Assembly (NCBI GenBank): GCA_029204225.1
Contig: CM055113.1
Span: 24,773,571 to 24,837,570 of the forward strand
Length of the DNA stretch: 64,000 nt
Direction of reading: 5' to 3'
Source: Diphasiastrum complanatum
Taxonomy: Eukaryota; Streptophyta; Lycopodiopsida; Lycopodiales; Lycopodiaceae
The stretch's first letter is position 1. Each line of letters starts with the position of its first letter. Below are positions 1 to 62,674 of this stretch, piece after piece. The position numbers and the translations under genes are program-made. The notes below the pieces were generated by a model, which had not been told where the DNA came from, ran no database searches, and saw only the letters and a list, made by a program, of their open reading frames with translations.

Positions 1-297
1 ATTGGACTATATTCAAGCACGCCTCAATTTCCTATTGGACCTCACAAGGTTCCACCTATAAATCCTATTGGACCTCTTGGAATTCATCAAACAAAAGCTT
101 TACACTTGTCTACACTCTAATTGGCACGTGTTTAGCCTCTTACTCTATTTTGGCTCAATAGTGGCATTACAAGTGGAAATGCATAATTTGCCATCTATGC
201 CAAATTTATTCCTATCAACATCCTACACCTAGATGCTTGATGTAAAAAACATAAGACCCCTATATCTAACATAGATAATCTTTTTCAATTCTTCACA
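1..297 (-). repeat. copia-1 3' LTR, partial
   Basis: This stretch matches 4532-4828 almost base for base. Read on the minus strand it begins TGTGAAG, directly after a purine-rich tract at about 298-311, as a 3' LTR should. The outer end lies before the window start. Confidence 0.85.
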
Positions 298-311
298 CTC
301 CTCCTAAAAAA
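298..311 (-). other. Polypurine tract of copia-1
   Basis: On the minus strand the sequence reads TTAGGAGGAG and is followed immediately by the LTR start TGTGAAG. This is the expected plus-strand priming site of an LTR retrotransposon. Confidence 0.7.
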
Positions 312-315
312 TTAT

Positions 316-2880
316 CTATGAAGATTTGAGCATTGATCTTGATATAACTCCAAGATTAGATCTATGCTTGATGAAAGCACTTTTGCTCAAAGGCTTGGTG
401 AGTAGATCGGCAATACAAGAGGACGAGTTGACATGCTCCAAATAGATTTCTCCTCCAATAAGCTTTTCTCTCACAAAATGGTGTGCCACTTCTATGTGCT
501 TGCTTCTTGCATGAAATATGGGATTATTGGCAAGAGCTTGGGTCGAGATGTTATCACACTTGATCATTGGTAGATCATCCTCCTTGATGCACTTTAGCTC
601 CATTAATAACCTCTTGATCCAAAGCACTTCTTTGGTAGTTGTAGTGAGTGCTTTGTACTCGGCCTCACATGAAGAGAGAGATATAGTATCTTGCTTTTTG
701 GAAAGCCAAGATATTAGATTGCCTCCAAGAAAGATAGTGTATGCACTAATAGACTTTCGATCCATCTTGTCACTTGCAAAGTCCGAATCCGAGTAGCCAA
801 TAATGGATAGATCTTCACTTTTATAGAGTAGACCATAATCACAAGATGAAGATACATATCTTAGAATCCTCTTGGCCATCTTCCAATGATGGATCTTAGG
901 ATCTTGTATAAATTGACTCAATTTGTGCACACAAAAACTTAGATCGGGCCTAGTAATGGTAAGCCAAATCAAGGAGCCTACAAGACTCCTAAAAAGTGTG
1001 ATGTCCTCAAAGGATCTTTCATCACCTTTATTAGGATCTTTTACAATTTGCTCCATTGGAGTATCTATGCTCTTAGAATTTTCCATATGGAATTTTTTCA
1101 ACATAGAGTGAGCATATCTAGATTGGCATATAAAGACATGATTTTCATAAAAATCAATTTCTAGGCCTAGGATGTAATGCATCTCTCCTAGATCTTGCAT
1201 TTTAAACTCACATCCAAGTGCTAGCTTGGTTTCATCAACTAGCTTGATACAACTTCCACAAAGAATAATGTCATCAACATAAATTAGAAGAATGGCAATA
1301 TTGCTATCAACAAACTTTAGATACATGGAAGGATCATAGTCACTAAGCGTAGATCCTAGTGAGATAAGAAAAGAGTTAAGTCTTGAATACCATGATCTTG
1401 GTGCTTGCTTGAGTCCATGAAGACTTTTGAAGAGCAAGCACACTTTGGACTTATCCTTGATGAATCCTTGAGGTTGTTCCATATAGATCTCCTCCTCAAG
1501 ATAACCATTTAGAAAAGCATTGGATACATCTAATTGGAACACATTCCACTTGAAAAAACAAGCAAGAGAAATAAGAATTCTTATTGTCACCATCTTTGCA
1601 ATGGGTGCAAAGGTCTCCTCATAATCAAGACAATGGATTTGAGCAAATCCTTTGGCACATAATCTTGCTTTATGCTTGTTGATGGTGCCATCATGATTGA
1701 ACTTGATCCGAAATACCCACTTGCAACCAATCACATGCTTGTTGGATGGAGGATCTACAAGCTCCCAAGTATTGTTGGTGATCAATGCATCATACTCTTG
1801 CTTCATGGAATCATACCACTCCTTGGTATTGAGTGCCTCTTGTACATTCTTTGGCTCTTCATGAGAGACATAAAAAACATAATTAGTGGAATAAAGATCC
1901 ACTTGTTTGCCTTTGTCAACATATGAGAGCCTCTTAGGCTCGGATCTATCTCTCATGGATCTTCTTGGTGAAAAAATCCGAGGAGAGTCTTCTTCAAATC
2001 TCGACCCCATCACATCATGATTGTCTTCAAAATCTATAATTGATGATGCATCCATATATTTCTTGATCTCGGCCTCTTCAAATGATGAGTGTTGATCATC
2101 ATGAAAGACAACATCTCTACTTTCAATAACTTGAGAAGTAGAGAGTATAAAGACTCTATAGGCCTTCTTGGTGGATGAGTATCCAACCATGATCCCTTTG
2201 CATGCACTAGGATCTTCCTTCTTCCTTGTTTCCAAGGGAATATGGACAAAGCATAAGCATCCAGAAACTCTAAGGTGATCAACCTTAGGCTTCTTCAAAA
2301 ATAAGATTTCATATGGTGACTTTCCTCCAAGAGCTATATGTGGGAGCCTATTGCAAAGATAATTTGCACAATTAATGGCTTCTCCCCAAAAATCTTTGGG
2401 CAAAGATGCCTCAATTCTCATAGATTTTGCACATTCACATAGAGATCTATTCTTTCTCTCGGCCACTCCATTTTGAGATGGAGAGTAGGCACAAGAAAAC
2501 TCTCTTTTAATGCCTCCAAGCTCACAAAAAACTTGAAATTTATTGGAGATATATTCACCACCTCCATCACTTCTAAGAGCTTTAATCTTGAATGAGAATT
2601 GCTTCTCTACATAAGCTTTGAAAATTAGGAAATGATCAAACACCATAGATTTAGAAGCAAGAAGATATATCCAAGTGAATTTTGTGTAATCATCAATGAA
2701 AGTAACAAAACGAGTGGCTCCTCCCTTGCTTGTAGTTGATGAGAAATGCACATCCAAGTGGATTAACTCCAAAGGATGCTTGCTTTTGATAGAAGGTCTT
2801 GTAAATGGCTTTTTGAGATTTAGCAATAGCACAAGCCTCACAAGGCTTGATCTTCTTGGAGAGTGACTTTGGCAAGCCAA
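316..2880 (-). pseudogene. copia-1 pol: integrase, reverse transcriptase, RNase H
   Basis: This open frame encodes most of a copia pol protein. From its start come the integrase core with LDVH, RSDGGGEY and NGVAERKNR (the D, D and E residues), then the reverse transcriptase with KWVFRIKFN, QLDVSNAFLNG and YVDD, then RNase H with SDSDFAS, SSCEAEY and CDNIS. The C-terminus LTKPLSKSAF is typical of copia proteins. Within the frame I see no internal stop. It has no proper start: its true N-terminal part lies in another frame (2814-4080). The break coincides with a run of five T at 2810-2814, where one base appears lost relative to related copies. This is a recently inactivated element, not a host gene. 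Confidence 0.9.
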
Positions 2881-4080
2881 TAGCTTTGGCTTCTTTGATC
2901 ATAGAGAGCATGGATTTGTAGTTGGGATGTCCCAACCTCCTATGCCATAATTCCTCCATAGAGAGCTTGTTCACAAGAGCAACATTACAAGCATTCACAT
3001 ACTCATTTAGATCTAGTTTATAGATGCCACCAAGTCTAGATCCTAATGCAAGTATCTCATCATTCTTCTTGATAGTGCAAGTATCAACATTGAATTTTAC
3101 ATCAAGGACATTATCAAGCAATTGGCCAACACTAATAAGATTCTTGGTAAGCTTAGTTACATAAAGAACTCTAGAGAGAGAAAGAACTTTAGAGGATGCA
3201 AGCTTCAAGGGAATGTTCCCTATGCCTTCAATAGGACATTCAAAATCATTTGCAGTGTATATTGATTTCTTGACTCCATCATAAGGTGCAATAGAAGAGA
3301 AAGAGTCCTTGGAGCTACACATATGTGAAGAGGCTCCACTATCAATATACCATAGGCTGTCCTTCTTGAAAGGAGTAGATGAGAAACTAGAGACCATGAG
3401 AGATCCCTCTCCATCACTTGCAATAGTGTCTTCCTTCTCATTGGTAATATTGGCTTGCTTGAGTTGATTCTTCTTTTTGAAGCAATTGGTGGCATAATGA
3501 CATTTCTTGCCACAATAAAAGCACTTGATCGTCTTAGAAAGCTTGTCCATCCTCAAGAGCTTGTACTCTTGTCTTGATTCTTTTGAAATTAGCACACTTT
3601 GGGGAGCCTCCAAACTTGGTAGCTCCTCCTTAATGGCATAGGATTGGACAAGGTTATCAAATTCACTTCTCAAGTCATTGAGAATGACTTGAACTAGCTC
3701 ATTTTGATTGATGGAATCACCAATGCAAGCAAGCTCTCTATGAATATCTTTTACTCTCAAAACATAACTAGATGCACTCTCATCACGTTTTTGGCTACTT
3801 TGAAAGATTTGATTCCTAAGAGTGAGAAGCCTAGAGGTATTCTTAGCCTCATAGATAGTCTTGAGACATTCCCAAGCTTCTTTGACTATTGTACAAGTAT
3901 CTATCTCCCTCAATATCTCATTAGAGACATTCATCTTAATGTAGTGGAGAGCCATCCTAGCTCTCTTTTTGTATTTTTGAACCTCTTGAAGAACTTGTGG
4001 TTCTTCTTCAAGGCCAAGAACTATGTCCATCACGTCTTCAAGGATCAAGATGGACTCCATCCTCATTTTCCAAATTGAAT
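2814..4080 (-). pseudogene. copia-1 gag, protease and integrase zinc domain
   Basis: The frame begins abruptly at SYSIWKMRME, a motif normally about 20 residues inside copia Gag. The primer-binding site lies immediately upstream, so the leader and the Gag start are deleted. After the Gag domain come the zinc knuckle CFYCGKKCHYATNC (CX2CX4HX4C), the aspartic protease motif WYIDSGASSHM, and the integrase HHCC domain with WHRRLGHP and CEAC. Translation leaves frame near 2810-2814 and would end about 40 codons later at 2693. In an intact relative (10530-14480) the same domains are joined in a single frame. Confidence 0.88.
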
Positions 4081-16965: not shown

Positions 16966-17837
16966 TGTTGTAAAGCTATTTTTACAAGCTTTACTTTCGG
17001 CGCCACTGGCGCCAACAGCGCCCCTGCTGCTCTCAGTGCCACTGTGACCAGAATCCAGCCGGTGCCAAGTTCCTATGGCTGAAAATCTTTGATCGGTTCT
17101 AGCGAAGTCCAAAGAGCTCAGATCGATGCGCAATCACCTCACACGATCTAGGCATGATTAAAGGAAGCCTGGGGATCAATAAAATCTAGAGAGAGAAAAT
17201 GACTTTCTAGAGAGATAAAAAATGTGCTTTACCAGCCTAGGTAGAGTGCTTGGTATGATGGGGGGTGCCGAATCCCACCAATACTATAGGAGAGTGCGGG
17301 TTGCGAGTCAGGGCGAGCTCCAACCAAGTCTCAGCCTCCCTTGCTGGAATGTTGTCCTGGCACTCGCCTTGGCATGCCAGCTCCCCGGAGACTAGGGTCG
17401 ATCACACACTTCAAATGTAACCTTCTCAGATTTATCAATAAAGTAGGATTTTCCTCAAACTGACTCTGATTACCTTCTGGGTTTCAATGTTCGGTAAAAG
17501 CACCAGTTGTAAGGCCGCTTCAAAATTTTTAAGTTGGCACATAGCTGAGGGTCGTATCCCGGGACGCCAGCGGTATGCCGTTGGGACCATTCGGTCCGTG
17601 GCGCTAGCGGTATGCTATGGGGACCATTTGGTCCAGGAACTGGTTGTCTCCATATCTGTTGCTACTTGTGGTTGTGAGTGTTCCTTGCATGAACGTGAAT
17701 GGGTTAAGCTCGTGGGCTCTAACCTGTCGGCTGAGTTGGATGGCTTGCTTGGGCGGAAGTTACCTGTTTATGGCTGTCCAGTCTGGCGTGGCGCAGGTTG
17801 GCTTCCAGCACTCGTGACGAAGCTTTCAGTTGGTTAA
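16966..17837 (+). repeat. Family B LTR 2, 3' end missing
   Basis: It starts with the same TGTTGTAAAG and follows the LTR 1 sequence until about the equivalent of 8494, then jumps into internal sequence (TGGGCTGATTC). The last roughly 300 bp of LTR, the primer-binding site and the leader are absent from the middle of the array. Confidence 0.82.
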
Positions 17838-19672: not shown

Positions 19673-20869
19673 TGTTGTAAAGCTACCTTTACAAGCTTTA
19701 CTTCCAGTGCCACTGGCGCTAGCATTGTCCGTGGCGCCAGCAGCGCCCCTGCTGCTCCCGGCGCTACTGTGACTAGAATCCAGCCGGCGCCAAGTTCCTA
19801 TGGGTGAAAATCTTTGATTGGTTCTAGCGAAGTCCAAAGAGCTTAGATCGATGTGCAATCACCTCACATGATCTAGGCATGATTAAAGGAAGCCTGGGGA
19901 TCAATAAAATATAGAGAGAGAAAATGACTTTCTAGAGAGAGAAAAATGTGCTTTACCAGCCTGGGTAGACTGCTTGGTATGAGGGGGGGTAATCCCACCA
20001 ATACTATAGGGGAGTGCGGGTTGCGACTCAGGGCGAGCTCCAACCAAGTCTCAGCCTCCCTTGCTGGAATGTTGTCCTGGCACTCGCCTTGGCATGCCAG
20101 CTCCCCGGAGACTAGGGTCGGTCACACACTTGAAATGTAACCTTCTCAGATTTATCAATAAAGTGGGATTTTTTTCAAACTAATTCTGATTACCTTCTGG
20201 GTTTCAATGTTCGGTAAAAGCGCCAGTTCTAAGGCCACTTAAAAATTTTTAAGCTGGCACATAGCTAAGGGTCGTATCCCGGGACGCCAGCGGTATGCCG
20301 TCGGGACCATTCGATTCATGGCGCCAGCGGTATGCTGTCGGGACCATTTGGTCCAGGACTTGGTTGTCTCCATATCTGTCGTGGCTTGTGGTTCTGAGTG
20401 CTCCTTGCATGAACGTGAATGGGTTAAGCTCTTGGGGAACGGGCTCTAACCTGTCGGCTAAGTTGGATGGCTTGCTTGGGCGGAAGTTACCTGTTTATGG
20501 CTGTCCAGTCTGGCGTGGCGCCAGGTTGGCTTCTAGCGCTTGTGACGAAGCTTTCAGTTGGTTAAGCCTGATGTAAGTCAGACCGCTTGCTTGGAATGGA
20601 TGTTACTCGTTTGTAACGAAGCTTGGAGTTGGTTAAGTTTGATGTATGTCGGGCGGCTTGCTTGGAGCGAAGTCACCCACATCGGGACCCCCGATCTGGC
20701 ATGGCACCAGGTTGGATCTCAATGTTGGTTTTCGGAACTTCAAGTTGGTTAAGTCTGATCGTTGTTGGCGAGTTGGCTGCTTGTATGTCAAGTGGGTTTG
20801 GATGGCAAGAGTTGAAGGCTGGGAAGCTAAGTTGTGGTTCCCGGCTCCCTTTGGGATGCCTGCGCTACA
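19673..20869 (+). repeat. Family B LTR 3, complete (1197 bp)
   Basis: It begins TGTTGTAAAG, ends GCGCTACA and is followed by the target duplication ATACA (20870-20874). It matches LTR 1 apart from scattered substitutions and small indels. Confidence 0.87.
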
Positions 20870-27422: not shown

Positions 27423-28246
27423 AAGTGATGTTAGAAGTTGAAAATAATGACCTGCATTTTTTCCCTTACCAGGCCACTCGCCGCTTTTCCACCAATTTGA
27501 AAGCCAAATCGGCGTCGCCTTCCGAAATGCACTCAGTCGTCGACTCCCAACAACTTGCCCAATGAAATGGTGAAATCACTTAGGGCGCACTCCGAACACT
27601 TTCTTTGCCGCAATCACTTTGTTTTGCTGTACCGTACTTGCAGGTACAGTCCGGATGCCCTTCGTTTGGGGGTTATAGACTTTTGTTTGGGTCAAAACGG
27701 GCAAAGGACCCAAAAATAGGGACTTTTCTAGTTTTTGAACTGTTTCTTTACCTTGAAGAAACTTCACTCTTCACTTGTGAAGGGACCCAACTCCAATTTC
27801 AATATGAAAATTTTTAATGAAGTTGAAGGCCAAAATGCACTTCACTTCTTCAGGGCCCTCTTCAACAACCCTTCAGACTCTAGCACAAACTAGTAAGCAT
27901 GAAACATAAATCAAGACTCTGCTAATTAGGGTAGCATGAATTGGTAATCATGAAACATAAACGAATGGCATCAGAAACGCACACGCACACTCTAAACCCT
28001 AAAACCATAACACACATGAGGATAAAAAAAAAAAAGAACATAGTAGAGTGCTAATCAAATCTCCCGAACCGTACGGTTATATCGTATTCCAGAATGTCAC
28101 CACATGCTCCCTCCCTACGGCATTTGGGCTTTCTCATGGAACTTATCGTCCAACAAGAAACATCTCAGCCACGTCTTTATCGGAAGAAAACAAGGGCTAC
28201 ACACCTTCCTAGAATTGGGAGTGTTCGTTACATTTAACTCTTTCAT

Positions 28247-28249
<3 letters not shown>

Positions 28250-28320
<71 letters not shown>
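28250..28320. repeat. (CT)n microsatellite in array unit 1
   Basis: An uninterrupted CT run of about 71 bp between TTTCATGAT and CCAAATCTCTCG. The matching tract in unit 2 (28988-29007) is only about 20 bp. Confidence 0.95.
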
Positions 28321-28322
<2 letters not shown>

Positions 28323-29450
28323 AATCTCTCGCTCTCTATTTCTAAGCATGAAAACATAACCAATACACAACACATAAACTATGATCTTGTAAATTAAAAT
28401 AACAGGACTAGGTTAAGATCCTACAAATTAGAGTAGCACAAACTAGTAAGCATGAAACATAAATCAAGATTCTGCGAATTAGGGTAGCATGAATTGAAAA
28501 TCATGAAACATAAAAGAATGGCATCACACACTCACACGCACACTCTTAACCCTAAAATCATAACACACATGAGGATAAATAAAAGAAAAAACATAGTAGA
28601 GTGCTACTCAAAACTCCCGAACCGTACGGTTAGAAACATATATCAAAATTATCGGAATCAGGGTAGCATGAACTGGTAATCATGAAACATAAACAAATGG
28701 CATCACACACGCACACGCACACGCACACGCACACTCTAAACCCTAAAATCATAACACACACGAGGATAAAAAAAACAACATAGTAGATTCCTAACCAAAA
28801 CTCCCCAACCGTACGGTTATATCCTATTCCAGAATGTCACCAAATGCTCCCTCCCTATGGCGTTTGGGCTTTCTTATGGAAGTTATCGTCCAACAAAAAA
28901 CATTTGAACCACGTCTATATCAGAAGAAAACAAGGGCTACACACCTTGCTAGAATTGGGAGTGTTGGTTATCTTTAACTCCTTCATGATCTCTCTCTCTC
29001 TCTCTCCAAATCTCTCGCTCTCTATTTCTAAGCATGAAAACATAACCAATACACAACACATAAACTATGATCTTGTAAATTAAAATTACAGGACTAGGTT
29101 AAGATCCTACAAATTAGAATAGCACAAACTAGTAAGCATGAAACATAAATCAAGATTCTGCGAATTAGGGTAGCATGAACTGGTAATCATGAAACATAAA
29201 CGAATGGCATCACACACGCACACGCACACTCTAAACCCTAAAACTGTACGGTTATATCCTATTCTAGAATGTCACTACATGCTCCCTCCCTACGACGTTT
29301 GGGGTTTCTCGTTGAACTTATCGTCAAACAAGAAACATTTGATGCACACCTTTATCAGAAGAAAACAAGGGCTACACACCTTTCTAGAATTGGGAGTGTT
29401 GGTTACCTTTAACTCTTTCATGATCTCTCTGTCTCTGTCTCTCTCTCTCT

Positions 29451-29555
<105 letters not shown>

Positions 29556-29960
29556 AATCTCTCGCTCTCTATTTCTAAGCATGAAATCATAACCACACAA
29601 CACATAAACTATGATGTTGTAAATTAATATAACAGGACTAGGTTGAGATCCTACAAATCAAAGTAGCACATACTAGTAAGCATGAAACATAAATCAAGGT
29701 TCTGCAAATTAGAGTAGCATGAACTGGTAATCATGAAACATAAATGAATGGCATCACACGTGCACATGCACACTCTAAACTCTAAAACCATAACACACAC
29801 GAGAATAAAAAAAAAAACATAGTAGAGTGCTAATCAAAACTCCCGAACCATACGGTTATATCCTATTCTAGAATGTCACCACATGCTCCCTCCCTATGGT
29901 GTTTGGGCTTCCCGAACCGTACGGTTATATCCTATTCCAAAATGTCACCTACGCACCAAG

Positions 29961-34294: not shown

Positions 34295-34968
34295 CTACAA
34301 AACGATCATAGGTATACAATTGAATGCTGGTTGTGTATGTGATGATTTTATGGCAAGAAAGAATGAACGTGGATCGTGAATGATCTGCAAACAAATTGGT
34401 AGTTCGTGGATGTTGGCGATGATAGAAGTTAATAGCGATCAGCATCCTTTGAATGTTACTGTTTTTCGTAATCAGATAGAATATTTGTAATATTTGTAAG
34501 ATTTTGAGTTTATTTTGTGTGTTAGCCATATATTATAAGATGTTGCATCCAGTGTTTTCTGATCTGTAGTGGTAATGCAACAAATCTAAGATGAATTGGA
34601 ATGTAATGTCATTTGCAAAACATAAACCTTCATGTAAATTGTGAACGTGGAAAACCAACATGAAGTAGGAAATTCGCCTCTAGCATTTCTTATAGGTCGA
34701 GCTTTTCAGGGTACGTTTCTGGGCGACAAGCACGACTTATTTGGAAAAAAAAATTGTGAGTGCGATGCACTCCAATGCCTTGAGGCCAACACTCTGGTGG
34801 ACATCGTTGACAAGAATGAATGAATGGATGCCGTATGAATCTTCTGATTGAGCAGGAGTACATATTGATGGCATTATCCAACACCAAATTCCAATATGCA
34901 GAGCACGCATCGGTTAGTGTAAACGCATGGCAAGTGGCCTAGTCATTCCGGCTCTTTCAATATTTAGC

Positions 34969-35882
34969 TTAGGTAGAGAGAAAAGAAGCCACGGCCTGCT
35001 CCGTGCTGAAGCCACTTCCTTTGTCATTGTCCACGTTGAAGATCATGATGCCTGGGATGGTCAACTGCTGGGCGGCTCCAATGAAGTCGGATCCCTGCAG
35101 TCCTCTGCCAGCCGCCTCCACGCTAGGTAGCAGCTTGCTAGCATCGAAGCTGCCAGCCACAGTGTTGTATCTGCTTATGAAGTCGGATTGCGATGCCAAG
35201 CCATCAGCATAGAACTGATAGTTCACATAGTCTATGGAGGAGCCGAAGTTGGCAAAGAGGTCTTCGTAGATGGAGATAGTGGTTCAAAAGGGGCAATGGA
35301 GGCTATGGAAATAGTTCCAGAGCTCTTGAGCTGGGAGATGAGACCACCGATGCACGTGGTGAAGGTGGCAGAGGTGGGAAAGTTCTCGTAGTCGACGTCG
35401 ACGCCGTCCAGCGAGTACTCAGAGACGAGGTTGGAGATGGAGCTGACTGCATTGCTGATCCAAGTGTCGGTGCTGGGGGGGTCGTACCAGTCGACATTCC
35501 TGGTGGTGCCGTCTGAGAGGAATTGGGAGAAGCCTGCGAGGCTGACAAGAAGCTTGACGTTGGGATTGCTCTGTTTGAAGCTCTGTGCAGACTGAGGAGT
35601 GAGACTGGAAGCCCAAAAGGCATTAAAGTTACCATTCTGAGTGTTGCCCGATGCGTCTGCATCGATGGCGAAGGACAGCGGTAAGATGTATTGTAAGGAG
35701 GCAGAGATAGGGAGATCCGTGAACTGTAGGTCTGATGCTCCAGAGGCGCCAATGTAATCTACGATGAGGTTGCCGTGGCTGAATTGGAGGAGTGCACGAC
35801 CTCCTGCCCCAGGGAACTGTCTGAGCGCATAGGCCGCGTTGATGGCCATCATACATAGTATCATCAGGAGCACAGGTTGCAT
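34969..35882 (-). pseudogene. GH18 chitinase-like gene, copy 1, frameshifted
   Basis: This copy encodes the same protein as the intact genes at 55185 and 57333 up to SIASIAPF, then loses frame near 35284-35286 through a one-base deletion. The remaining 85 residues continue intact in another frame to the same stop. The signal peptide and the catalytic DGVDVDYE are retained, but the C-terminal third of the barrel would be lost. Other differences are few (for example S34F and Q155E). A TATATA at 35969-35974 lies about 90 bp upstream, as in copy 2. A short, truncated secreted product is possible; a working enzyme is unlikely. Confidence 0.92.
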
Positions 35883-36208
35883 AGCTGAAACCCGGGGAAG
35901 TTGAATTCCTCGCCTCTGTGCTATCGGAATAATTTCTGAATCAGCCTTTACTAGAGTAGTGCTGTATGTATATATGGTATGTTGACGAATTGTGGGCTCA
36001 CAGATGAGACGACGAGGGGATATGAATTATGAGATGGACCAGAGCAGTGCAGTGCAGTGCAATTATGCTTGGGAATTTGTGAATGACAGCCCATTTTATT
36101 TATATGGGCTCGTGAAGACTTGGGGCAGAGGAATTCGCGTCTAATGTTGTGGAATAGAGCAACTAAGTCAGTTGCTTGACATAGTCTATCCATTATTATA
36201 GGGGGCGT

Positions 36209-36344
36209 GTTGAAACTCCCATAAAGAAATATGCCTGAGGGCCTACCTTGCTGGGAGGGCCCTTGCCCGAGGGCGGGAGCCCGAGGGCAGGCCTCGACCA
36301 GCAGCGAGGAAGGCCCGAGTTGAAACTCCCATAAAGAAATATGC
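36209..36344. repeat. 84-bp GC-rich insertion between 26-bp direct repeats
   Basis: Two copies of the same 26 bases (36209-36234 and 36319-36344) enclose a GC-rich segment with two GCCCGAGGGC blocks. The corresponding place upstream of chitinase copy 2 (about 54829-54854) has a single copy and no insert, so this is an insertion with duplication of 26 target bases. Confidence 0.8.
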
Positions 36345-47422: not shown

Positions 47423-47645
47423 TCTCCTCATATTTTGTGATGAAGAACCAAAGCTTTGTAGCTATCTCATGCCATTTTGGATCCACACAATTTTTGCTTG
47501 TTATCTCTCTATCTTTCTCTCTCTAACTCATGTTGAGGCTAATGCTAATACACTGATATCTTGTACTTTTGCTCATTATTGATTTATTGCTATCATATTC
47601 TGATGTTTAGCATGCTAGATTGTGTTTAAGCCATATTTTGAACTA

Positions 47646-48335
47646 GGAGTCTTATAGGCTCCTTAATTTGGCTCACAATAACTAGACCTGACATAAGCTT
47701 TAGTGTTCATAAGTTGAGCCAGGCTATGCAAATTCCTACTATTTATCATTGGAAATAGCCAAGAGAGTACTTAGATGTACATCTTCAACTTTTGATTATG
47801 GTTTATTGTATAAAAGTGAAGATATTTCTATTGTTGGTTATTCAAACTTGGATTTTGCAAGTGATAGAGCAGATAGAAAATCTACAAGTGCTTATGTCAT
47901 ATATCTTGGAGGAAACTTGATATCTTGGCTTTCCAAAAAGCAAGATACTATGTTACTCCCATCGTGTGAAGCTGAGTATAAGGCACTCACTACAACAACA
48001 AAGGAAGTGCTTTCGATCAAGAGGTAACTAGTGGAGCTAAAGATAATCATGGAAGAGGACCTACCTATGATCATGTGTGACAACATTTCAGCCCAAGCCC
48101 TTGCCAACAACCCAATATTCCATGTAAGGAGCAAACACATCGAAGTTGCACATCACTTCGTGAGAGAGAAGCTCATTGGAGGGGAAATCTACTTGGAGCA
48201 CATCGACACATCATCTTGTATTGCTGATATGCTCACCAAATCTTTGAGCAAAAGTTCCTTCATCAAGAATAGAGCCAATCTTGGAGTAATACCAAGATCC
48301 ATGTTCAAGTAAATATAGATTGTTTTTAGGAGGAG
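47646..48335 (+). pseudogene. Copia RNase H fragment, array unit 1
   Basis: It starts inside the C-terminal part of reverse transcriptase (SLIWLT...RPD) and covers RNase H to the end of the polyprotein. There is a frameshift near 47752 and a TAA at 48028-48030, where unit 2 has TTA. The usual SDSDF reads SNLDF, so one active-site Asp is replaced by Asn. It ends at the polypurine tract AGGAGGAG before the LTR. Confidence 0.87.
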
Positions 48336-49017
48336 TGTTGAAATGGAAAAATAATCCATGTTGACTTTAGGCTTGCTACAAATATTGTACCATGCAAGTA
48401 TGTTGTTCATAAATGCAAAATGCCAAGTTTGGCCTAGATAAAACTCGAGCTACATGGATATGTCATATCTAGATTGATGAGTACAACTTGCATATAGTTT
48501 GTAGACATAGAATTAGCAAAATTATGCTTGTAGAAACTCGTGGCAATTCACATGCATTAATTGTAAGTGATCCATAGTGACATGCAAGGCATGCACAAAG
48601 TGTAATGGACACATGCATGATTATTTGTACATTTCTAGTTAGAACTAGCACACTTGGAAAAAGTTGGTAGAGTTTCATGCATGAGAAGTGACAAATGTCA
48701 CATAGACTCTAGTTTTCACTTTGGATGTAATTAAATGATGGATGGATGTGGTTCTACAGTGAGCTACCTCAAACTCCATAAATATGTGTAGCCCTCCTCA
48801 TATTTCGTGATGAAGAACCAAAGCTTTGTAGCTATCTCATGCCATTTTGGATCCACACAATTTTTGCCTGTTATCTCTCTACCTTTCTCTCTCTAACTCG
48901 TGTTGAGGCTAATGCTAATACACTGATATCTTGTGCTTTTGCTCATTATTGATTTATTGCTATCATATTCTGATGCTTAGCATGCTAGATTGTGATTAAG
49001 CCATATCTTTTGAACTA
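48336..49017 (+). repeat. Middle LTR of the copia array, 3' end missing
   Basis: It starts TGTTGAAATGG after the polypurine tract and matches the first 680 bp of 49708-50499. It then runs into pol at AACTAGGAGTC. About 110 bp of LTR end, the primer-binding site, the leader, gag and most of pol are absent at this junction. Confidence 0.85.
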
Positions 49018-49707
49018 GGAGTCTTATAGGCTCCTTAATTTGGCTCACAATAACTAGACCTGACATAAGCTTTCGTGTTCATAAGTTGAGCCAAGCTATG
49101 CAAATTCCTAATATTTATCATTGGAAAATGGCCAAGAGAGTACTTAGATATATATCTTCAACTTTGATTATGGTTTATTGTATAAAAGTGAAGATATTTC
49201 TAATGTTGGTTATTCAAACTTGGATTTTGCAAGTGATAGAGCAGATAGAAAATCTACAAGTGCTTATGTCATATATCTTGGAGGAAACTTGATATCTTGG
49301 CTTTCCAAAAAGCAAGATACTATGTTACTCTCATCGTGTGAAGCTGAGTATAAGGCACTCACTACAACAACAAAGGAAGTGCTTTCGATCAAGAGGTTAC
49401 TAGTGGAGCTAAAGATAATCATGGAAGAGGGCCTACCTATGATAATGTGTGACAACATTTCAGCCCAAGCCCTTGCCAACAACCCAATATTCCATGCAAG
49501 GAGCAAACACATCGAAGTTGCACATCACTTCGTGAGAGAGAAGCTCATTGGAGGGGAAATCTACTTGGAGCACATCGACACATCATCTTGTATTGCTGAT
49601 ATGCTCACCAAATCTTTGAGCAAAAGTTCCTTCATCAAGAATAGAGCCAATCTTGGAGTAATACCAAGATCCCTGTTCAAGTCAATATAGATTGTTTTTA
49701 GGAGGAG
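49018..49707 (+). pseudogene. Copia RNase H fragment, array unit 2
   Basis: Nearly the same as unit 1, it has the SNLDF change but an open frame of 170 codons (49178-49690) to the natural C-terminus. A one-base loss near 49165 separates this from the preceding reverse transcriptase remnant. Both units share the SNLDF mutation, so it predates the duplication. Confidence 0.87.
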
Positions 49708-50499
49708 TGTTGAAATGAAAAAATAATCCATCTTGACTTTAGGCTTGCTACAAATATTGTACCATGCAAGTATGTTGTTCATAAATGCAAAATGCCAAGT
49801 TTGGCCTAGATAGAACTCGAGCTACATGGATATGTCATATCTAGATTGATGAGTACAACTTGCATATAGTTTGTAGACATAGAATTAGCAAAATTATGCT
49901 TGTAGAAACTCGTGGCAATTCACATGCATCAATTGTAAGTGATCCATAATGACATGCAAGGCATGCACAAAGTGTAATGGACACATGCATGATTATTTGT
50001 ACATTTCTAGTTAGAACTAGCACACTTGGAAAAAGTTGGTAGAGTTTCATGCATGAGAAGTGACAAATGTCACATAGACTCTAGTTTTCACTTTGGATGT
50101 CATTAAATGATGGATGGATGTGGTTCTACCTTGAGCTACCTCAAACTCCATAAATATGTGTAGCTCTCCTCATATTTTGTGATGAAGAACCAAAGCTTTG
50201 TAGATATCTCATGCCATTTTGGATCCACACAATTTTTGCTTGTTATCTCTCTATCTTTCTCTCTCTAACTCGTGTTGAGGCTAATGCTAATACACTGATA
50301 TCTTTTACTTTTGCTCATTATTGATTTATTGCTATCATATTCTGATGCTTATCATGCTAGATTGTGATTAAGCCATATCTTCTTAACTAGATCTTGTTAG
50401 AATCAGGTTATTGTGCTAATCACAAAGCTTAATTAGATCCATCAGATCCATCATACTTGTGGGCATTCCCCACATGTGTGAAATCTGAAAATTTTGTCA
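49708..50499 (+). repeat. Terminal LTR of the copia array, complete (792 bp)
   Basis: It runs from TGTTGAAATG to TTTTGTCA, matching the LTR at 61304-62096 (793 bp) in both ends and length. Beyond 50499 the two loci diverge, which fixes the LTR end. Confidence 0.87.
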
Positions 50500-54477: not shown

Positions 54478-55092
54478 ATTTGCTTAGGATCATGCAAAAG
54501 GTAATAAATAGCTTTTGCTTTTTGCTCATGCAATTTGCACTTCGTCATACTAATTTTGAAATGGCAACAATGCATGCTACTTTAGTAGCCCTCAATTGAT
54601 GATGGTTCAGCCTTAAAAATTAAGACCACTACCACATATTAATATCCTTTAACATTGACTTTGTATCAAACTCCCTGGTTGACCAACCTCAACACATAGT
54701 ATTTATTGCCTTTGCAAGGCAAGGCCAAAAAGCAATGAGGTAAAGGTGATGTTGCCCAAGTTGGGTAACTAGCATTTAACCAATTGGGAAATGCAGATTC
54801 ATTCACGTAAGGTGAACTTGGTGCATATTTCTTTATGGGAGTTTCAACACGCCCCCTATAATAATGGATAGACTAAGTCAAGCAACTGACTTAGTTGCTC
54901 TGTTCCACAACATTACACGCGAATTCCTCTGCCCCAAGTCTTCACGAGCCCATATAAATAAAATGTGCTCTTCCCTACTGTCATTCACAAATTCCCAAGC
55001 ATAATTGCACTGCACTGCACTGCTCTGCTCCATCTCATAATTCATATCCCCTCGTCGTCTCATCTGTGAGCCCACAATTCGTCAACATACCA

Positions 55093-55098
55093 TATATA
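55093..55098 (+). promoter_or_regulatory. Probable TATA box of chitinase copy 2
   Basis: TATATA in CATATATACATACA lies about 90 bp before the ATG at 55185 and is identical in copy 1. In copy 3 the same place reads CATACATACATACA (57243-57256), so the box is lost there. Confidence 0.5.
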
Positions 55099-55184
55099 CA
55101 TACAGCACTACTCTAGTAAAGGCTGATTCAGAAATTATTCCGATGGCACAGAGGCGAGGAATTCAACTTCCCCGGGTTTCAGCT

Positions 55185-56099
55185 ATGCAACCTGTGCTGC
55201 TGATGATACTATGTATGATGGCCATCAACGCGGCCTATGCGCTCAGACAGTTCCCTGGGGCAGGAGGTCGTGCACTCCTCCAATCCAGCCACGGCAACCT
55301 CATCGTAGATTACATTGGCGCCTCTGGAGCATCAGACCTACAGTTCACGGATCTCCCTATCTCTGCCTCCCTACAATACATCTTACCGCTGTCCTTCGCC
55401 ATCGATGCAGACGCATCGGGCAACACTCAGAATGGTAACTTCAATGCCTTTTGGGCTTCCAGTCTCACTCCTCAGTCTGCACAGAGCTTCAAACAGAGCA
55501 ATCCCAACGTCAAGCTTCTTGTCAGCCTCGCAGGCTTCTCCCAATTCCTCTCAGACGGCACCACCAGGAATGTCGACTGGTACGACCCCCCCAGCACCGA
55601 CACTTGGATCAGCAATGCAGTCAGCTCCATCTCCAACCTCGTCTCTCAGTACTCGCTGGACGGCGTCGACGTCGACTACGAGAACTTCCCCACCTCTGCC
55701 ACCTTCACCACGTGCATCGGTGGTCTCATCTCCCAGCTCAAGAGCTCTGGAACTATTTCCATAGCCTCCATTGCCCCTTTTGGAGCCACTATCTCCATCT
55801 ACGCAGACCTCTTTGCCAACTTCGGCTCCTCCATAGACTACGTGAACTATCAGTTCTATGCTGATGGCTTGGCATCGCAATCCGACTTCATAAGCAGATA
55901 CAACACTGTGGCTGGCAGCTTCGATGCTAGCAAGCTGCTACCTAGCGTGGAGGCGGCTGGCCGAGGACTGCAGGGATCCGACTTCATTGGAGCCGCCCAG
56001 CAGTTGACCATCCCAGGCATCATGATCTTCAACGTGGACAATGACAAAGGAAGTGGCTTCAGCACGGAGCAGGCCGTGGCTTCTTTTCTCTCTACCTAA
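55185..56099 (+). CDS. Secreted GH18 chitinase-like protein, copy 2 (304 aa)
   Basis: The protein has a signal peptide (MQPVLLMILCMMAINAAYA, residues 1-19) followed by one GH18 barrel. The catalytic motif D159-G-V-D162-V-D164-Y-E166 is complete, with E166 as the acid. YIGA near the N-terminus, LPLSFAID and DYVNYQFY fit the tulip-bulb-chitinase type of plant GH18. Family members hydrolyse chitin or serve as storage or lectin-like proteins, so activity needs testing. The C-terminal strand reads GIMIFNVDND; the Trp often found there is absent. An upstream in-frame ATG exists at 55143, but copy 3 has it out of frame and copy 1 has ATA, so I chose 55185. No intron is visible. Secretion to the apoplast or vacuole is likely. 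Confidence 0.92.
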   Translation: MQPVLLMILCMMAINAAYALRQFPGAGGRALLQSSHGNLIVDYIGASGASDLQFTDLPISASLQYILPLSFAIDADASGNTQNGNFNAFWASSLTPQSAQSFKQSNPNVKLLVSLAGFSQFLSDGTTRNVDWYDPPSTDTWISNAVSSISNLVSQYSLDGVDVDYENFPTSATFTTCIGGLISQLKSSGTISIASIAPFGATISIYADLFANFGSSIDYVNYQFYADGLASQSDFISRYNTVAGSFDASKLLPSVEAAGRGLQGSDFIGAAQQLTIPGIMIFNVDNDKGSGFSTEQAVASFLST

Positions 56100-57205
56100 G
56101 CTAAATATTGAAAGAGCCGGAATGACATTGCCACTTGCCATGCGTTTACACTAACCGATGCGTGCTCCGCATATTGGAGTTTGGTGTTGGATAATGCCAA
56201 CAATATGTACTCCTGCTCAATCAGAAGATTCATACGGCATCCATTCATTCATTCTTGTCAACGATGTCCACCAGAGTGTTGGCCTCAAGGCATTGGAGTG
56301 CATCGCACTCACAATTTTTTTTCCAAATAAGTTGTGCTTGTCGCCCAGAAACGTACCCTGAAAAGCTCGACCTATAAGCAATGCTAGAGGCGAATTTCCT
56401 ACTTCATGTTGGTTTTCCACGTTCATAATTTATATGAAGGTTTATGCAATCATGCCCTCAAATGATTTTATTGTTATATCTTCGTTCCAGAACATTAACA
56501 ATATAGTGTTAGGAAACATAACAGAATTTGCACATGACATTACATTCCAATTCATCTACATCTACATAGATTTGTTGCATTACCACTACAGATCAGAAAA
56601 CACTCTATGCAACATCTTATAATATATGGCTAACACACAAAATAAGCTCAAAATCTTACAAATATTTTATCTGATTCCGAAAAACAGTAACATTCAAAGG
56701 ATGTTGATCGCTATTAACTTCTATCATCGCCAACATCCACGAACTACCAATTTGTTTGCAGATCATTCACGATCCACGTTCATTCTTTCTTGCCATAAAA
56801 TCATCACATACACAACCAGCATTCAATTGTATACCTATGATCCTTTTGTAGTCCACAAATTAAAAATACTTCTGCAGACGGGAAATTTGAAAGAGTCATT
56901 CCTACTGTGCTTGATTGAAGTTCAAGCCCCAAATGTTGATAAAGTAATTTGCTAATTAGAAGTCGTGACGTTGTCCATATCTTAGTTGTCTAGTCTGCAT
57001 TTTATATATGAATTTCTAATTGACTTCTATTCTAGCAATAAGTCCCATGTTGGAAGGCAGGGATAGGTTTTCTTCTATGCTCTCTCCTAAATGTGGCTTG
57101 ACCAGTTATTCTATGAGTTTTGGTTTCTTCATATCTTAATGTTCACTTTTACATTTCTCGACTATTAAGAATGCAAAACTTATTCACCTTCTCCCTAAAG
57201 GTTAA

Positions 57206-58443
57206 CTCGTCTCATCTGTGAGCCCACAATTCGTCAACATACCATACATACATACAACACTACTCTAGTAAAGGCTGATTCAGAAATTATTCCGATGGCA
57301 CAAAGGCGAGGAATTCACCCCGGGTTTCAGCTATGCAACCTGTGCTGCTGATGATACTATGTATGATGGCCATCAACGCGGCCTATGCGCTCAGACAGTT
57401 CCCTGGGGCAGGAGGTCGTGCACTCCTCCAATCCAGCCACGGCAACCTCATCGTAGATTACATTGGCGCCTCTGGAGCATCAGACCTACAGTTCACGGAT
57501 CTCCCTATCTCTGCCTCCCTACAATACATCTTACCGCTGTCCTTCGCCATCGATGCAGACGCATCGGGCAACACTCAGAATGGTAACTTCAATGCCTTTT
57601 GGGCTTCCAGTCTCACTCCTCAGTCTGCACAGAGCTTCAAACAGAGCAATCCCAACGTCAAGCTTCTTGTCAGCCTCGCAGGCTTCTCCCAATTCCTCTC
57701 AGACGGCACCACCAGGAATGTCGACTGGTACGACCCCCCCAGCACCGACACTTGGATCAGCAATGCAGTCAGCTCCATCTCCAACCTCGTCTCTCAGTAC
57801 TCGCTGGACGGCGTCGACGTCGACTACGAGAACTTCCCCACCTCTGCCACCTTCACCACGTGCATCGGTGGTCTCATCTCCCAGCTCAAGAGCTCTGGAA
57901 CTATTTCCATAGCCTCCATTGCCCCTTTTGGAGCCACTATCTCCATCTACGCAGACCTCTTTGCCAACTTCGGCTCCTCCATAGACTACGTGAACTATCA
58001 GTTCTATGCTGATGGCTTGGCATCGCAATCCGACTTCATAAGCAGATACAACACTGTGGCTGGCAGCTTCGATGCTAGCAAGCTGCTACCTAGCGTGGAG
58101 GCGGCTGGCCGAGGACTGCAGGGATCCGACTTCATTGGAGCCGCCCAGCAGTTGACCATCCCAGGCATCATGATCTTCAACGTGGACAATGACAAAGGAA
58201 GTGGCTTCAGCACGGAGCAGGCCGTGGCTTCTTTTCTCTCTACCTAAGCTAAATATTGAAAGAGCCGGAATGACATTGCCACTTGCCATGCGTTTACACT
58301 AACCGATGCGTGCTCTGCATATTGGAATTTGGTGTTGGATAATGCCATCAATATGTACTCCTGCTCAATCAGAAGATTCATACGGCATCCATTCATTCAT
58401 TCTTGTCAACGATGTCCACCAGAGTGTTGGCCTCAAGGCAGTG
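57206..58443 (+). repeat. Tandem duplicate of the chitinase gene (copy 3 unit)
   Basis: Similarity to copy 2 begins about 130 bp before the ATG (CGTCTCATCTGTGAG) and ends about 195 bp after the stop (GGCAKTGGAGTGC). The upstream sequence shared by copies 1 and 2 (54478-55055) is absent here. Confidence 0.88.
57333..58247 (+). CDS. Secreted GH18 chitinase-like protein, copy 3 (304 aa)
   Basis: The encoded protein is identical to copy 2, including the signal peptide and the catalytic D159-D162-D164-E166. By eye the coding DNA also shows no difference, whereas the flanks do. A four-base deletion just upstream puts the ATG at 57291 out of frame, which supports 57333 as the true start. The unit carries only about 130 bp of the ancestral upstream region, and its TATATA is changed to TACATA. 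Expression may therefore differ from copy 2 or depend on new upstream sequence at 57062-57205. The gene lies 1.2 kb downstream of copy 2 in the same direction. Confidence 0.92.
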   Translation: MQPVLLMILCMMAINAAYALRQFPGAGGRALLQSSHGNLIVDYIGASGASDLQFTDLPISASLQYILPLSFAIDADASGNTQNGNFNAFWASSLTPQSAQSFKQSNPNVKLLVSLAGFSQFLSDGTTRNVDWYDPPSTDTWISNAVSSISNLVSQYSLDGVDVDYENFPTSATFTTCIGGLISQLKSSGTISIASIAPFGATISIYADLFANFGSSIDYVNYQFYADGLASQSDFISRYNTVAGSFDASKLLPSVEAAGRGLQGSDFIGAAQQLTIPGIMIFNVDNDKGSGFSTEQAVASFLST

Positions 58444-58450
58444 GAGTGCT

Positions 58451-59371
58451 ATGCAACCTGTGCTACTGATGATACTATGTATGATGGCCATCAACGCTTG
58501 GTACATAGACAGTGGAGCCTCTTCACATATGTGCTGTTCAAAGGAGTCATTTGACTCAATCTTACCTTTCAAAGGACTCAAGAGATCTATTTACACAGCT
58601 AATGATCATGAGTGTCCAATAGAAGGAATTGGCAACATTCCATTGAAACTTGCTTCTTCAAAAGTTCTTGCACTTTCTAATGTTCTTTTCATTCCAAAAC
58701 TTACAAAGAACTTAATTAGTGTGGGAAAGTTGCTTGATAATGGTTGTGATGTAAAGTTGAACTCCACTACTTGTTTTATCAAGAGAAAAGATGAGATCCT
58801 TGCTGATGGAACTAGATGTGGTGGAATTTTTAAGTTGAATTCTTATGAGAATGCAAACCTTTGTGAAGTTGCTTTGTTATCTAAGGAGGAGCTGTGGCAT
58901 AGAAGGTTGGGACATCCTAACTTTACATCTATGTCTTCTATGGTTAAGAAGGAGAAGGCTATTGGTCTTCCAAAATCTCTTTCTAAAGGTTTCAAGCCTT
59001 GTGAGACTTGTGCCATTGCAAAGTCACACAGAAAGCCATATCAGAAGTCTTTTATAAAGACTACTTATCCATTGGAACTCATACATTTAGATGTACATTT
59101 TTCCTCTTCTAAAAGTATTGGTGGTGCAACATGTTTTGTCACCTTTATTGATGACTTTACTAGATACACTTGGTTGTATCTACTTTCTTCAAAGGCTATG
59201 GTTTTTTATCACTTTCTTATCTTAAAAGCTTATGTAGAAAAACAGTTTTCTTGCAAAGTTAAAGCTTTAAGATGCGATGGAGGAGGTGAATATATCTCCA
59301 ACAAGTTTCATTATTATTGTGAAGGTGAAGGAATAAAGAGAGAATTTTCTTGTGCCTATTCTGCATCCTAA
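58451..59371 (+). pseudogene. Chimera: chitinase signal peptide fused to copia protease-integrase
   Basis: The frame starts MQPVLLMILCMMAINA, the chitinase signal peptide (one silent base change), and passes without a break into WYIDSGASSHM, the copia aspartic protease. It then covers the rest of the protease, the integrase zinc domain (WHRRLGHPN, CETC) and the integrase core up to CAYSAS. There a TAA (59369-59371) replaces a codon that is Gln in related elements. The product would be 306 residues. An in-frame ATG at 58412 could add 13 residues. Gag is absent. The junction follows the chitinase copy 3 unit directly. Whether it is transcribed is unknown; a secreted copia protease is conceivable but unproven. 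Confidence 0.85.
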
Positions 59372-61286
59372 AATGGAGTAGCTGAGAGGAAAAATAGATC
59401 TTTATGTGAATGTGCTAAAGCAATTTGAGTAGCAGCTTCTTTTCCTATTGAATATTGGGGTGAAGCTATAAATTGTGCAAACTATTTGTTCAATAGATTA
59501 CCTCACAATGCTCTTGTTGGAAAAACACCTTTTGAAGTCTTGTTTCAGAAAAAACCTAAGGTAGATCACCTTAGAGTTTTTGGTTGTACTTGCTTTGTTA
59601 ATATGCCCTTGGAAACAAGGAAAAGAGATGATCCTAATTCTGTTAAAGGGATCATGGTTGGATATGCATCCAACAAGAAAGCTTACAGGATCTATGTTCA
59701 GAAGGATGAGTTCAAATATTCTCACAAAGATACTCCAATCATCACCCTTGAAGATCATCATGGAGAGATGGGGCCGAGATTTGAGGAGGAGTCACCTCGA
59801 ATTTTTTCACCAAGGAGATCTCAAAGAGAAAGATCCGAGCCTAGAAGGCTTACCTATAAAGATAGAGGAAAGCAAGCGGAAATCAACTCCACTAATTGTG
59901 CCTATTTTATTTCTCATGAGGAGCCGAAGGATGTATATGATGCTATCAACTCAAAGGAATGGTACCTTGCCATGAAGGAAGAATATGATGCTTTGATGGC
60001 CAATAATACATGGGAGCTTGTGAATCTTCCATCCAACAAGAATACCATTGGTTGCAAATGGGTTTTTCGACTATGTTTCTAATGCAATTCTAAATGGCTA
60101 TCTAGAAGAAGAGATCTATATGGATCAACCTATTGGGTTCATCCATGATGAGGGAAAAGTTTGCTTGCTCTTCAAAAGTTTATATGGATTAACGCAAGCT
60201 CCAAGGTCATGGTATTCTCGACTTAACACCTTTCTTGAGTCACTAGGATTTAATCTTAGTAACTATGATCCTTCCTTATATGTCAAGTTTTTTGATAAAG
60301 ATATTGTCATCCTTCTTATTTATGTTGATGATATCATTCTGACAGGAAGTTGTATCAAGTTAGTTGAGGAAACCAAGATTGCACTTGGAAAAGAGTTCAA
60401 GATGCAAGATCTTGGAAAAATTCACTATATTCTAGGATTAGAGATTGACTTTCTTAAAGATAAAGCTTTTGTATGTAAATCTAAGTACGCTCTTTCAATG
60501 TTAAAAAAGTTCAATATGTTGAATTGTAAGAGTATAGAAACACCTATGGAGCATAATGTAAATGACTCTAACAAAGGTGATGAAAGATCCTTCGAGGACA
60601 TCACACTTTTTAGAAGTCTTATAGGCTCCTTAATTTGGCTCACAATAGCTAGACCTGACATAAGCTTTAGTGTTCATAAATTGAGCCAGGCTATGCAAAA
60701 TCCTTCAGTTTATCATTGGAAAAAGGCCAAGAGAGTGCTTAGATATATATCTTCAACTTTTGATTTTGGTTTATTGTATAAAAGTGAGGATCTTTCTATT
60801 ATTGGTTATTCTGACTCGGATTTTGCAAGTGATAGAGCAGATCAAAAATCTACAAGTGCTTATGTCATATATCTTGGAGGAAACTTGATATCTTGGCCTT
60901 CCAAAAAACAAGATACTCTATCACTCTCATCATGTGAAGTTGAGTACAAGGCGCTCATTACAACAACAAAGGAACTGTTTTGGATCAAAAGGTTACTAGT
61001 GGAGATAAAGATAATTATGGAAGAAAATATACATATGATCATGTGTGACAACATTTCAGCTCAAGCCCTTGCCAACAACCCAATATTCCATGCAAGGAGC
61101 AAACATATCGAAGTTGCACATCACTTTGTGAGAGAGAAGCTCATTGGAGGTGAAATCAAATTGGAGCACATCGACACATCATCTTGCATTACAGATATGC
61201 TCACCAAACCTTTGAGCAAAAGTTCCTTCAACAAGCATAGAGCCAACCTTGGAGTTATACCAAGATCCATGTTCAAATCAATATAG
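59372..61286 (+). pseudogene. copia pol remainder: integrase end, RT (deleted), RNase H
   Basis: Coding continues past the TAA with NGVAERKNRSL, another stop at about 59426, and the integrase tail and linker to GCKWVFR near 60070. About 60 residues of reverse transcriptase are then missing, and the frame resumes with YVSNAILNGYLEEEIYMDQP, YGLTQAPRSWYSRL, YVDDIILTG and RNase H (YSDSDFAS, SSCEVEY, CDNIS). It ends at 61286 before the polypurine tract. This is the best-preserved copy of the lineage whose RNase H forms the array at 47423-50499. Confidence 0.9.
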
Positions 61287-61303: not shown

Positions 61304-62096
61304 TGTTAAAATTGAAAAACAATCCATATTGATTTCTTGGCTTGCTACAAATGTTGTACCATGCAAGTATGTAGCTCATTAATGCAAAATGCCAAGTTTG
61401 GCCTACATAGAACTCGAGCTACATGGTTATGTATTATCTAGTTTGATAAATGCAACTTGCATATAATTTGTAGACATAGAATTAGCATGATTATGCTTGC
61501 AGAAACTCGTGGCAACTCACATGCATTAATTGTAAGTGATCCATAGTGACATGCAAGGCATGCACAAAGTTTAATGGACACATGCATAATGATTTGGACA
61601 TTTCTAGTTAGACCTAGTACACTTGTAAACAGTTGGTAGAATTTCATGCGTGACAAGTGACAAATGTCACATAGACTCTAGATGTCACTTTAGATGTCAT
61701 TTTGGAATGGATAGATATGGTTCTACCTTGAGCTACCTCAATCTCCATAAATATGTGTAGCTCTCCCCACAATCAATGATGAAGAACCCAAGTTTTGTAG
61801 CTATCTCATGCCATTTTGGATCTAAACAAATATTGCTTGTTATCTCTCTAGATCTCTCTCTCTAACTCGTGTTGAGGCTAATGCTCATACACTGAAATCT
61901 TGTATTTTTTCATTCTTTGATTCATTGCTATTATATTCTGTTGATTAGCATGCTAGATTGTGGATTAGCCATTTCTTCTTAACTAGATTTTGTTGATCAA
62001 TCTAGAATCAAGTTATAGTGCCAATCACAAAGCTTAATTAAGATCAGTCACTCTTGTGGACATTTCCCACACGTGTGAATTCTGGAAATTTTGTCA
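61304..62096 (+). repeat. 3' LTR of the chimeric copia element (793 bp)
   Basis: It follows the polypurine tract TTAGGAGGAG and runs from TGTTAAAATTG to TTTTGTCA, matching 49708-50499. No 5' LTR exists: the left part of the element is replaced by the chitinase junction. Confidence 0.88.
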
Positions 62097-62212
62097 CTTA
62101 TGAGATATATAATCAGTTGTGATCTTTGTCACGATACAATTGATTTGGACATATTAGGTGTACTTCATGCACTGAGGGTAAGGAATCAATCATCAAAGCC
62201 TGACGGTTCGAA

Positions 62213-62674
62213 CATAGTTCCTTCTCTGTTGAGTTTCTTTGCATTCCCTTTGACTCGACTACACATATTTTTTCCACAACACTTATAAAAACAAATTCCA
62301 TCCAAAGAGATCAATGGGGCAAGACAAAACTCAACAATAGTGGCAATGTGCCTTGATAAGTTAGTTTTTAGTTGATCGTAGTCTATTAGTATCATTTATT
62401 TGTGATGTAATATTAATCTCATGATATTATCAATCCAAGCATCATCCATAGCCGATCGATGTTTTCTTCTAGAGTGATTTATGAAAACATTGAAAGGCTT
62501 TGTAAGGCGAAGGGTAAGGCATAGGGCAGCATGGTGGAAGGGTGGCTAGTGCAAGAATTCATAGTCTCTACCATGGAGGTCATTATATTCCTCATGTTTG
62601 GGAGAAGAAGAATGAAAAGAAGGATGATCTGTGTCTTTTTGGGAAAAGAAGGATGATTTGTGTTTTTTGGTGGG

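Follow-up and report, generated by a model that had tools for sequence, protein, structure and literature searches.

The window, by which we mean the whole stretch of 64,000 nucleotides analysed here, contains the signal peptide of a chitinase joined in frame to a copia protease, and the fusion is best read as an amplified chimeric pseudogene. We regard it as highly probable that an end-joined founder was multiplied by amplification of the chitinase cluster, that a second join occurred in the lineage of the window copy and one further locus (L009), and that the result is a neutral chimeric pseudogene. The junctions, the copy number, the grouping in one clade, the presence elsewhere of the insertion with its LTRs and target site duplication, and the neutral substitution pattern are directly supported.

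The fused frame and its surroundings in the window

A repeat comparison within the window confirmed that the chitinase signal peptide recurs downstream of chitinase copy 3, as the original prediction had stated. The 50 nt at 58448-58497 are 49/50 identical to the chitinase sequence and match 55182-55231, 57330-57379 and, on the minus strand, 35885-35836, with E values of about 1e-18. They cover the codons M-Q-P-V-L-L-M-I-L-C-M-M-A-I-N of the signal peptide, and the join reads AAC GCT TGG TAC ATA GAC AGT GGA (N-A-W-Y-I-D-S-G) in frame; the GC of its Ala codon is common to chitinase and copia, and the T is derived from copia. The hydrophobic core of the window copy is identical to that of the chitinase (mean Kyte-Doolittle value of 3.15), after which the residues AAYALRQ of the chitinase are replaced by AWYIDSG in the fusion. 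The claimed open frame of 306 codons was also seen, running from the ATG at 58451 to the TAA at 59369-59371 inside the integrase core, and it extends to 319 codons when counted from the ATG at 58412. Pfam detects the full Pol_BBD profile (1-81/81) in this frame, followed by gag_pre-integrase and by an integrase core that reaches nearly to the stop. In viral contigs, no exact copy of the junction pattern was found, and a search of these contigs with the copia part matched 8 stretches, of which 0 were confirmed.

Chitinase copy 3 is 99.1% identical to copy 2 and is devoid of the TATA region. The two copies are identical over 915 coding bases (57333-58247 versus 55185-56099), whereas their flanks show 7 mismatches and a 4-bp gap, suggesting recent gene conversion. 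Owing to a 4-bp deletion within 57295-57345, the first ATG of copy 3 is not in frame; most fusion copies are shortened in the same way, and translation may therefore begin at the second ATG. The 148 bp ahead of copy 3 (57059-57206) gave a weak score against the copia LTR, with 20 of 300 shuffles scoring as well, and comparison with the 5' part of the copia relative in the window and with the copy 1 flank gave nothing better. Other repeats in the window include tandem units of ~1371 bp at 47423-50499, each composed of the LTR of a related copia and its RNase H end (the units being 96-97% alike over the 217 nt compared), a back-to-back direct repeat of ~2.7 kb at 15134-20566 (93% identical), and several repeated blocks of ~100-400 bp with TC runs between them at 27881-29910.

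Table 1. Positions of the fusion, its chitinase and copia parts and related features in the window
Feature	Position	Strand	Details
Related copia	281..3352	-	75-79% identical; same Trp codon, immediately preceded by gag
Chitinase copy 1 with flanks	34621..36234	-	
Chitinase copy 2, stretch matching copy 3	55055..56301	+	TATA box at 54953; reference for the lost fusion promoter
Chitinase copy 3 (GH18)	57207..58449	+	Coding 57333-58247; part of 5'UTR, about 200 nt of 3' flank
In-frame fused ORF	58412..59371	+	TAA inside integrase core
Secondary junction	58448..58449	+	2-bp GC common to chitinase 3' flank (GGAGTGC) and signal-peptide segment (CAGCTATG)
Chitinase signal-peptide segment	58448..58497	+	Remains of the fusion gene 5' end; repeat and genome comparison
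Founder junction	58496..58497	+	2-bp GC common to chitinase (CAACGC) and native copia (GAGCTTGG)
Copia protease domain (Pol_BBD) with DSG motif	58499..58747	+	Pfam
GAG-pre-integrase and broken integrase core	58829..59371	+	Pfam
Remaining decayed pol (SH3, RVT_2)	59372..61286	+	~176 bp lost versus window relative near 60070
3' LTR	61304..62096	+	793 bp, TG...CA
CTTAT target site duplication	62097..62101	+	5' partner present in L043, L044 and L045, missing here

The founder of the fusion copies and the second join

The fusion is not unique to the window. When positions 58400-58600 were compared with the source genome (1.74 Gb), the best 40 of 1521 candidates were scored. Two of them matched over the full length, including the window itself, a further 13 started at the signal peptide, and the remaining 25 matched copia alone. 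Allowing up to 3 mismatches, a search for a 30-nt junction pattern located 15 places in the whole source genome (12 exact and 3 with one mismatch), spread over contigs C22, C24, and C31; its reversed control was found at 0 places. Upstream of the junction, 12 of the 15 fusion copies have a chitinase TATA box at -260 to -274, and in these the chitinase promoter and 5'UTR continue into the signal peptide and then into copia. Their promoter DNA comprises the TATA box and about 470 bp further upstream. Among the 14 copies beyond the window (L009-L022), L014 has lost the TATA part and L009, like the window copy, everything before the signal peptide. The promoter in 12/15 copies implies a founder in which copia pol followed a chitinase promoter, 5'UTR, and signal peptide.

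A tree was built from 14 fusion copies and 20 native copia copies, L012 being left out because only 117 bp of its copia remain. All 14 placed fusion copies, the window copy and L009 included, form one clade against the natives with a support of 0.947, which makes a single founder likely. The natives were drawn from the 25 copia-only matches and chosen as starting at GC, so natives without GC would be missed; all 20/20 read GGAGCTTGG where the fusion reads CAACGCTTGG, leaving the 2-bp GC as the overlap. As to the surroundings, a chitinase flank unit (query 62060-62560) has at least 40 matches in the source genome; among the matches listed, 36 lie over about 1.9 Mb of C22 (24.57-26.47 Mb), 3 on C24, and 1 on C31. 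Together with 41 signal-peptide segments on the same three contigs, these matches represent a large local amplification.

At two loci (L044 and L045) the original copia insertion still has both LTRs, and at a third (L043) a solo LTR is left of it. At all three, CTTAT precedes TGTTAAAATT, and behind the 3' LTR come CTTAT and the downstream flank also seen in the window. The paired LTRs and the target duplication are present in L044 and L045, and the window copy has the 3' side only. Among the matches listed in a search with the downstream flank, 16 were full-length, namely these three loci and 13 of the 15 fusion loci; the flank is absent from fusion copies L011 and L012. A search of the sequence before the insertion, 8.1 kb in L043 and 8.8 kb in L044, yielded no chitinase match. 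For L043, L044, and L045 alike, the first signal peptide in the same orientation is met only tens to hundreds of kb upstream, and no pre-fusion locus with both partners in order was found upstream of the three. The founder may therefore have arisen by a deletion, though not evidently a simple local one, or by an ectopic join. Of five loci examined for a clean empty site (L046-L050), none was clean.

These data are consistent with the following course of events. A copia of a multi-copy family would have inserted in the chitinase cluster with CTTAT as its target duplication. End joining with a 2-bp GC overlap in one unit would then have removed the 5' LTR and gag and attached the front of a chitinase gene, from promoter through 5'UTR to signal peptide, to pol immediately ahead of the protease, in frame by chance. 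The chimera could subsequently have been copied together with its surroundings to 15 places during growth of the cluster. The founder join was probably made once by end joining, although an overlap of 2 bp could arise by chance; the in-frame state may reflect a one-in-three chance and the long open frame would be inherited from copia. An accidental junction, one of the two options offered originally, is supported by the 2-bp overlap, the single founder clade, and the neutral change described below. End joining with short overlaps occurs in Arabidopsis and wheat (PMC10923293, PMC7156093), and joining by polymerase theta in Arabidopsis is reported to involve overlaps averaging 3 bp and some kb-sized deletions (PMC10923293); the proposed mechanism of the fusion fits these descriptions.

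In the window copy and L009, the signal peptide is preceded by the 3' flank of a chitinase gene. This upstream, secondary junction is present in these 2 loci, which differ from each other by 0.7-1%. On the tree, L015 and L022 are their neighbours within the fusion clade, and this nested position indicates that their promoter was lost later. The sole mismatch of the window copy to the chitinase signal peptide creates CTACTG, which occurs in 6/15 fusion copies and in 0/26 other signal-peptide segments of the genome (41 segments in total at up to 3 mismatches, the 26 being counted whether or not they belong to whole chitinase genes). Its absence from these 26, copy 3 included, argues against a fresh copy from copy 3, and the scattering of the six CTACTG copies on the tree makes some conversion between copies likely. 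As judged from these comparisons, the window copy is a later derivative of a promoter-bearing fusion, whose promoter and 5'UTR have been replaced by the copy 3 flank. A second join with a GC overlap would have placed this flank before the signal peptide and removed the promoter, and both joins may be ascribed to microhomology-mediated end joining. The picture of a signal peptide copied to the site after copy 3 thus gives way to that of the front end of an older fusion, and the order of events is changed: the older fusion lost its promoter when it was joined to the copy 3 flank.

The break in the copy 3 flank falls at a hairpin. The native chitinase flank GGAGTGCATCGCACTC folds with an energy of -8.4 kcal/mol and z values of -3.6 (copy 2) and -2.8 (copy 1), and the homology of copy 3 stops right after the left arm, that is, at the loop or apex. 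In a random control, 18/6000 window points lay at the apex of an equally stable hairpin, in a test devised after the break had been seen.

An alternative reading of the window junction is a templated filler: while mending a break that separated a truncated copia from the copy 3 flank, polymerase theta would have used the signal peptide ~1.1 kb upstream as a template for 50 nt. GC overlaps at both ends and a template in cis and in the same orientation would suit it, and such fillers have been described in plants (PMC10923293, PMC7156093). However, the chitinase promoter and 5'UTR precede the same junction in 12/15 copies, the window copy lies inside the clade of these promoter-bearing copies, and CTACTG is shared with fusion copies and with none of the other segments, copy 3 included. 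The filler, made unnecessary by the 15 copies, is therefore very improbable, even if it fares best among the alternatives to the end-joined founder and second join.

Open frames and selection

Over 290 codons of 14 fusion copies, 15 synonymous, 49 non-synonymous, and 1 stop changes were counted, compared to a neutral expectation for the same mutation types of 14.9, 47.0, and 3.1, respectively. For the protease part alone, the corresponding counts were 5/12/0 against 4.4/11.9/0.8. Mean pairwise pN/pS was 1.08 over the 290 codons and 0.66 in the protease part alone. An omega of 0.3 is rejected over the 290 codons (P 5e-6). For the protease part, the rejection of 0.3 is weak (P 0.03), and an omega of 0.5 is not rejected (P 0.20). 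Accordingly, the 290 codons of the 14 copies give no sign of purifying selection on the fused protease, with the protease part alone allowing an omega of 0.5.

A frameshift or stop within the 290 codons is found in 5/14 fusion copies, 3 of which have the same indels. Compared to the natives, of which 3/20 are open over this length, the 9/14 open fusion copies are in excess (P 0.005); the natives are older (pS of 0.066 versus 0.016), which may explain their fewer open frames. One stop, at codon 249 of the protease-integrase frame, is common to six of the 20 natives (L024, L030, L032, L035, L038, and L041) and fusion copy L011, which sits on the tree among copies without that stop.

In 11/12 TATA-bearing copies, the usual chitinase ATG and the signal peptide are in different frames, so translation would need the second ATG. 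From this signal-peptide ATG, 7/12 TATA-bearing copies are open for at least 264 codons and 6/12 for at least 306 codons. The longest frame, that of L015, spans 565 codons; it contains protease, GAG-pre-integrase, integrase, and SH3 domains, and its predicted product is a truncated pol rather than a trimmed protease. The C-termini of the fusion frames vary among copies, and the integrase part is still attached to the protease.

A functional gene for a secreted retropepsin under the chitinase promoter would be in keeping with the in-frame join, the unchanged hydrophobic core of the window copy, the DSG motif retained in 15/15 fusion copies, and the open frames of TATA-bearing copies and of fusion copies relative to natives. 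On the other side stand the neutral changes, the out-of-frame usual ATG, and a protease still linked to integrase with varied ends, and we consider such a gene highly improbable. The same slight chance is given to the prediction that some TATA-bearing sister copies are expressed together with the chitinases and yield a young secreted retropepsin-integrase; if true, an expressed TATA-bearing fusion would be a gene caught at birth, before selection is legible in its sequence. We infer instead that the 12 TATA-bearing copies are silent and that no protein is made from the fusion copies, and the fusion is real but probably non-functional, its copies drifting neutrally as a chimeric pseudogene. Of the proposed capture of a host secretion signal, the in-frame join is borne out by 15 copies of the junction, and the secreted aspartic protease is not: pN/pS is about 1 over the 290 codons, frames are broken in 5/14 copies, C-termini differ, the usual start is out of frame in nearly all TATA-bearing copies, and the window copy has lost its promoter.

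Remaining alternatives and relation to known systems

A chimeric retrocopy would have formed if the copia reverse transcriptase had switched template to a chitinase mRNA. Copy 3 starts inside the presumed 5'UTR without a TATA box and the orientation is the same throughout, as could be expected from such an event. However, the TATA box and about 470 bp upstream of it, which are not expected in a transcript, are present in 12/15 fusion copies, and 13/15 have the 3' flank of a normal insertion; template switching is contradicted by the promoter DNA at the junction and is very improbable. An assembly artefact at the window junction could be suspected in a repetitive cluster, but with 15 founder junctions and a secondary junction in two slightly different loci it is, on the assembled sequence, just as unlikely.

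The end-joined, amplified fusion can be compared with several known systems. Closest to copy 3 among GH18 plant chitinases of solved structure are 4rl3 (Chitinase A), 3sim, and 7xmh, matched over most of its length, whereas the fusion retains only the promoter, 5'UTR, and signal peptide. The copia part resembles Ty1/copia elements (PR-IN-RT) in its Pfam order in the window (Pol_BBD, gag_pre-integrase, rve, SH3, and RVT_2; up to SH3 in L015), and the insertion has a 793-bp LTR with TG...CA ends and a 5-bp target duplication. It differs from them in having a chitinase 5' end in place of the 5' LTR and gag, and in its broken frames.

In a domesticated retropepsin gene, a retroelement protease is placed behind a promoter and start region of the host, and the fusion shares this arrangement. 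In contrast to such a gene, it shows no sign of purifying selection over the 290 codons and has an integrase remnant attached. Among open-licence papers, none was found on a domesticated plant copia aspartic protease with a signal peptide, which is not proof of absence. In chimeric retrogenes made by template jumping, pieces of unrelated sequences are fused, as they are here (PMC2104539); the fusion differs from the retrogenes described there in including promoter DNA and is thus not RNA-based.

With chimeric gene-transposon pseudogenes arising by illegitimate recombination or microhomology-mediated end joining, the fusion shares the 2-bp overlaps, the loss of one element end, the local cluster, and the neutral drift; the differences are that the join is in frame at a signal peptide, lies at 15 places, and has a TATA box in 12. 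One cluster holds full-length, solo-LTR, fused, and secondarily rejoined versions of a single insertion. The case illustrates how a gene cluster and a retrotransposon can yield promoter-bearing, in-frame chimeras by chance and multiply them without visible selection. It also cautions that the in-frame fusion of a retroelement protease to a signal peptide of the host, even when present in 15 copies, does not by itself amount to evidence of a new gene.
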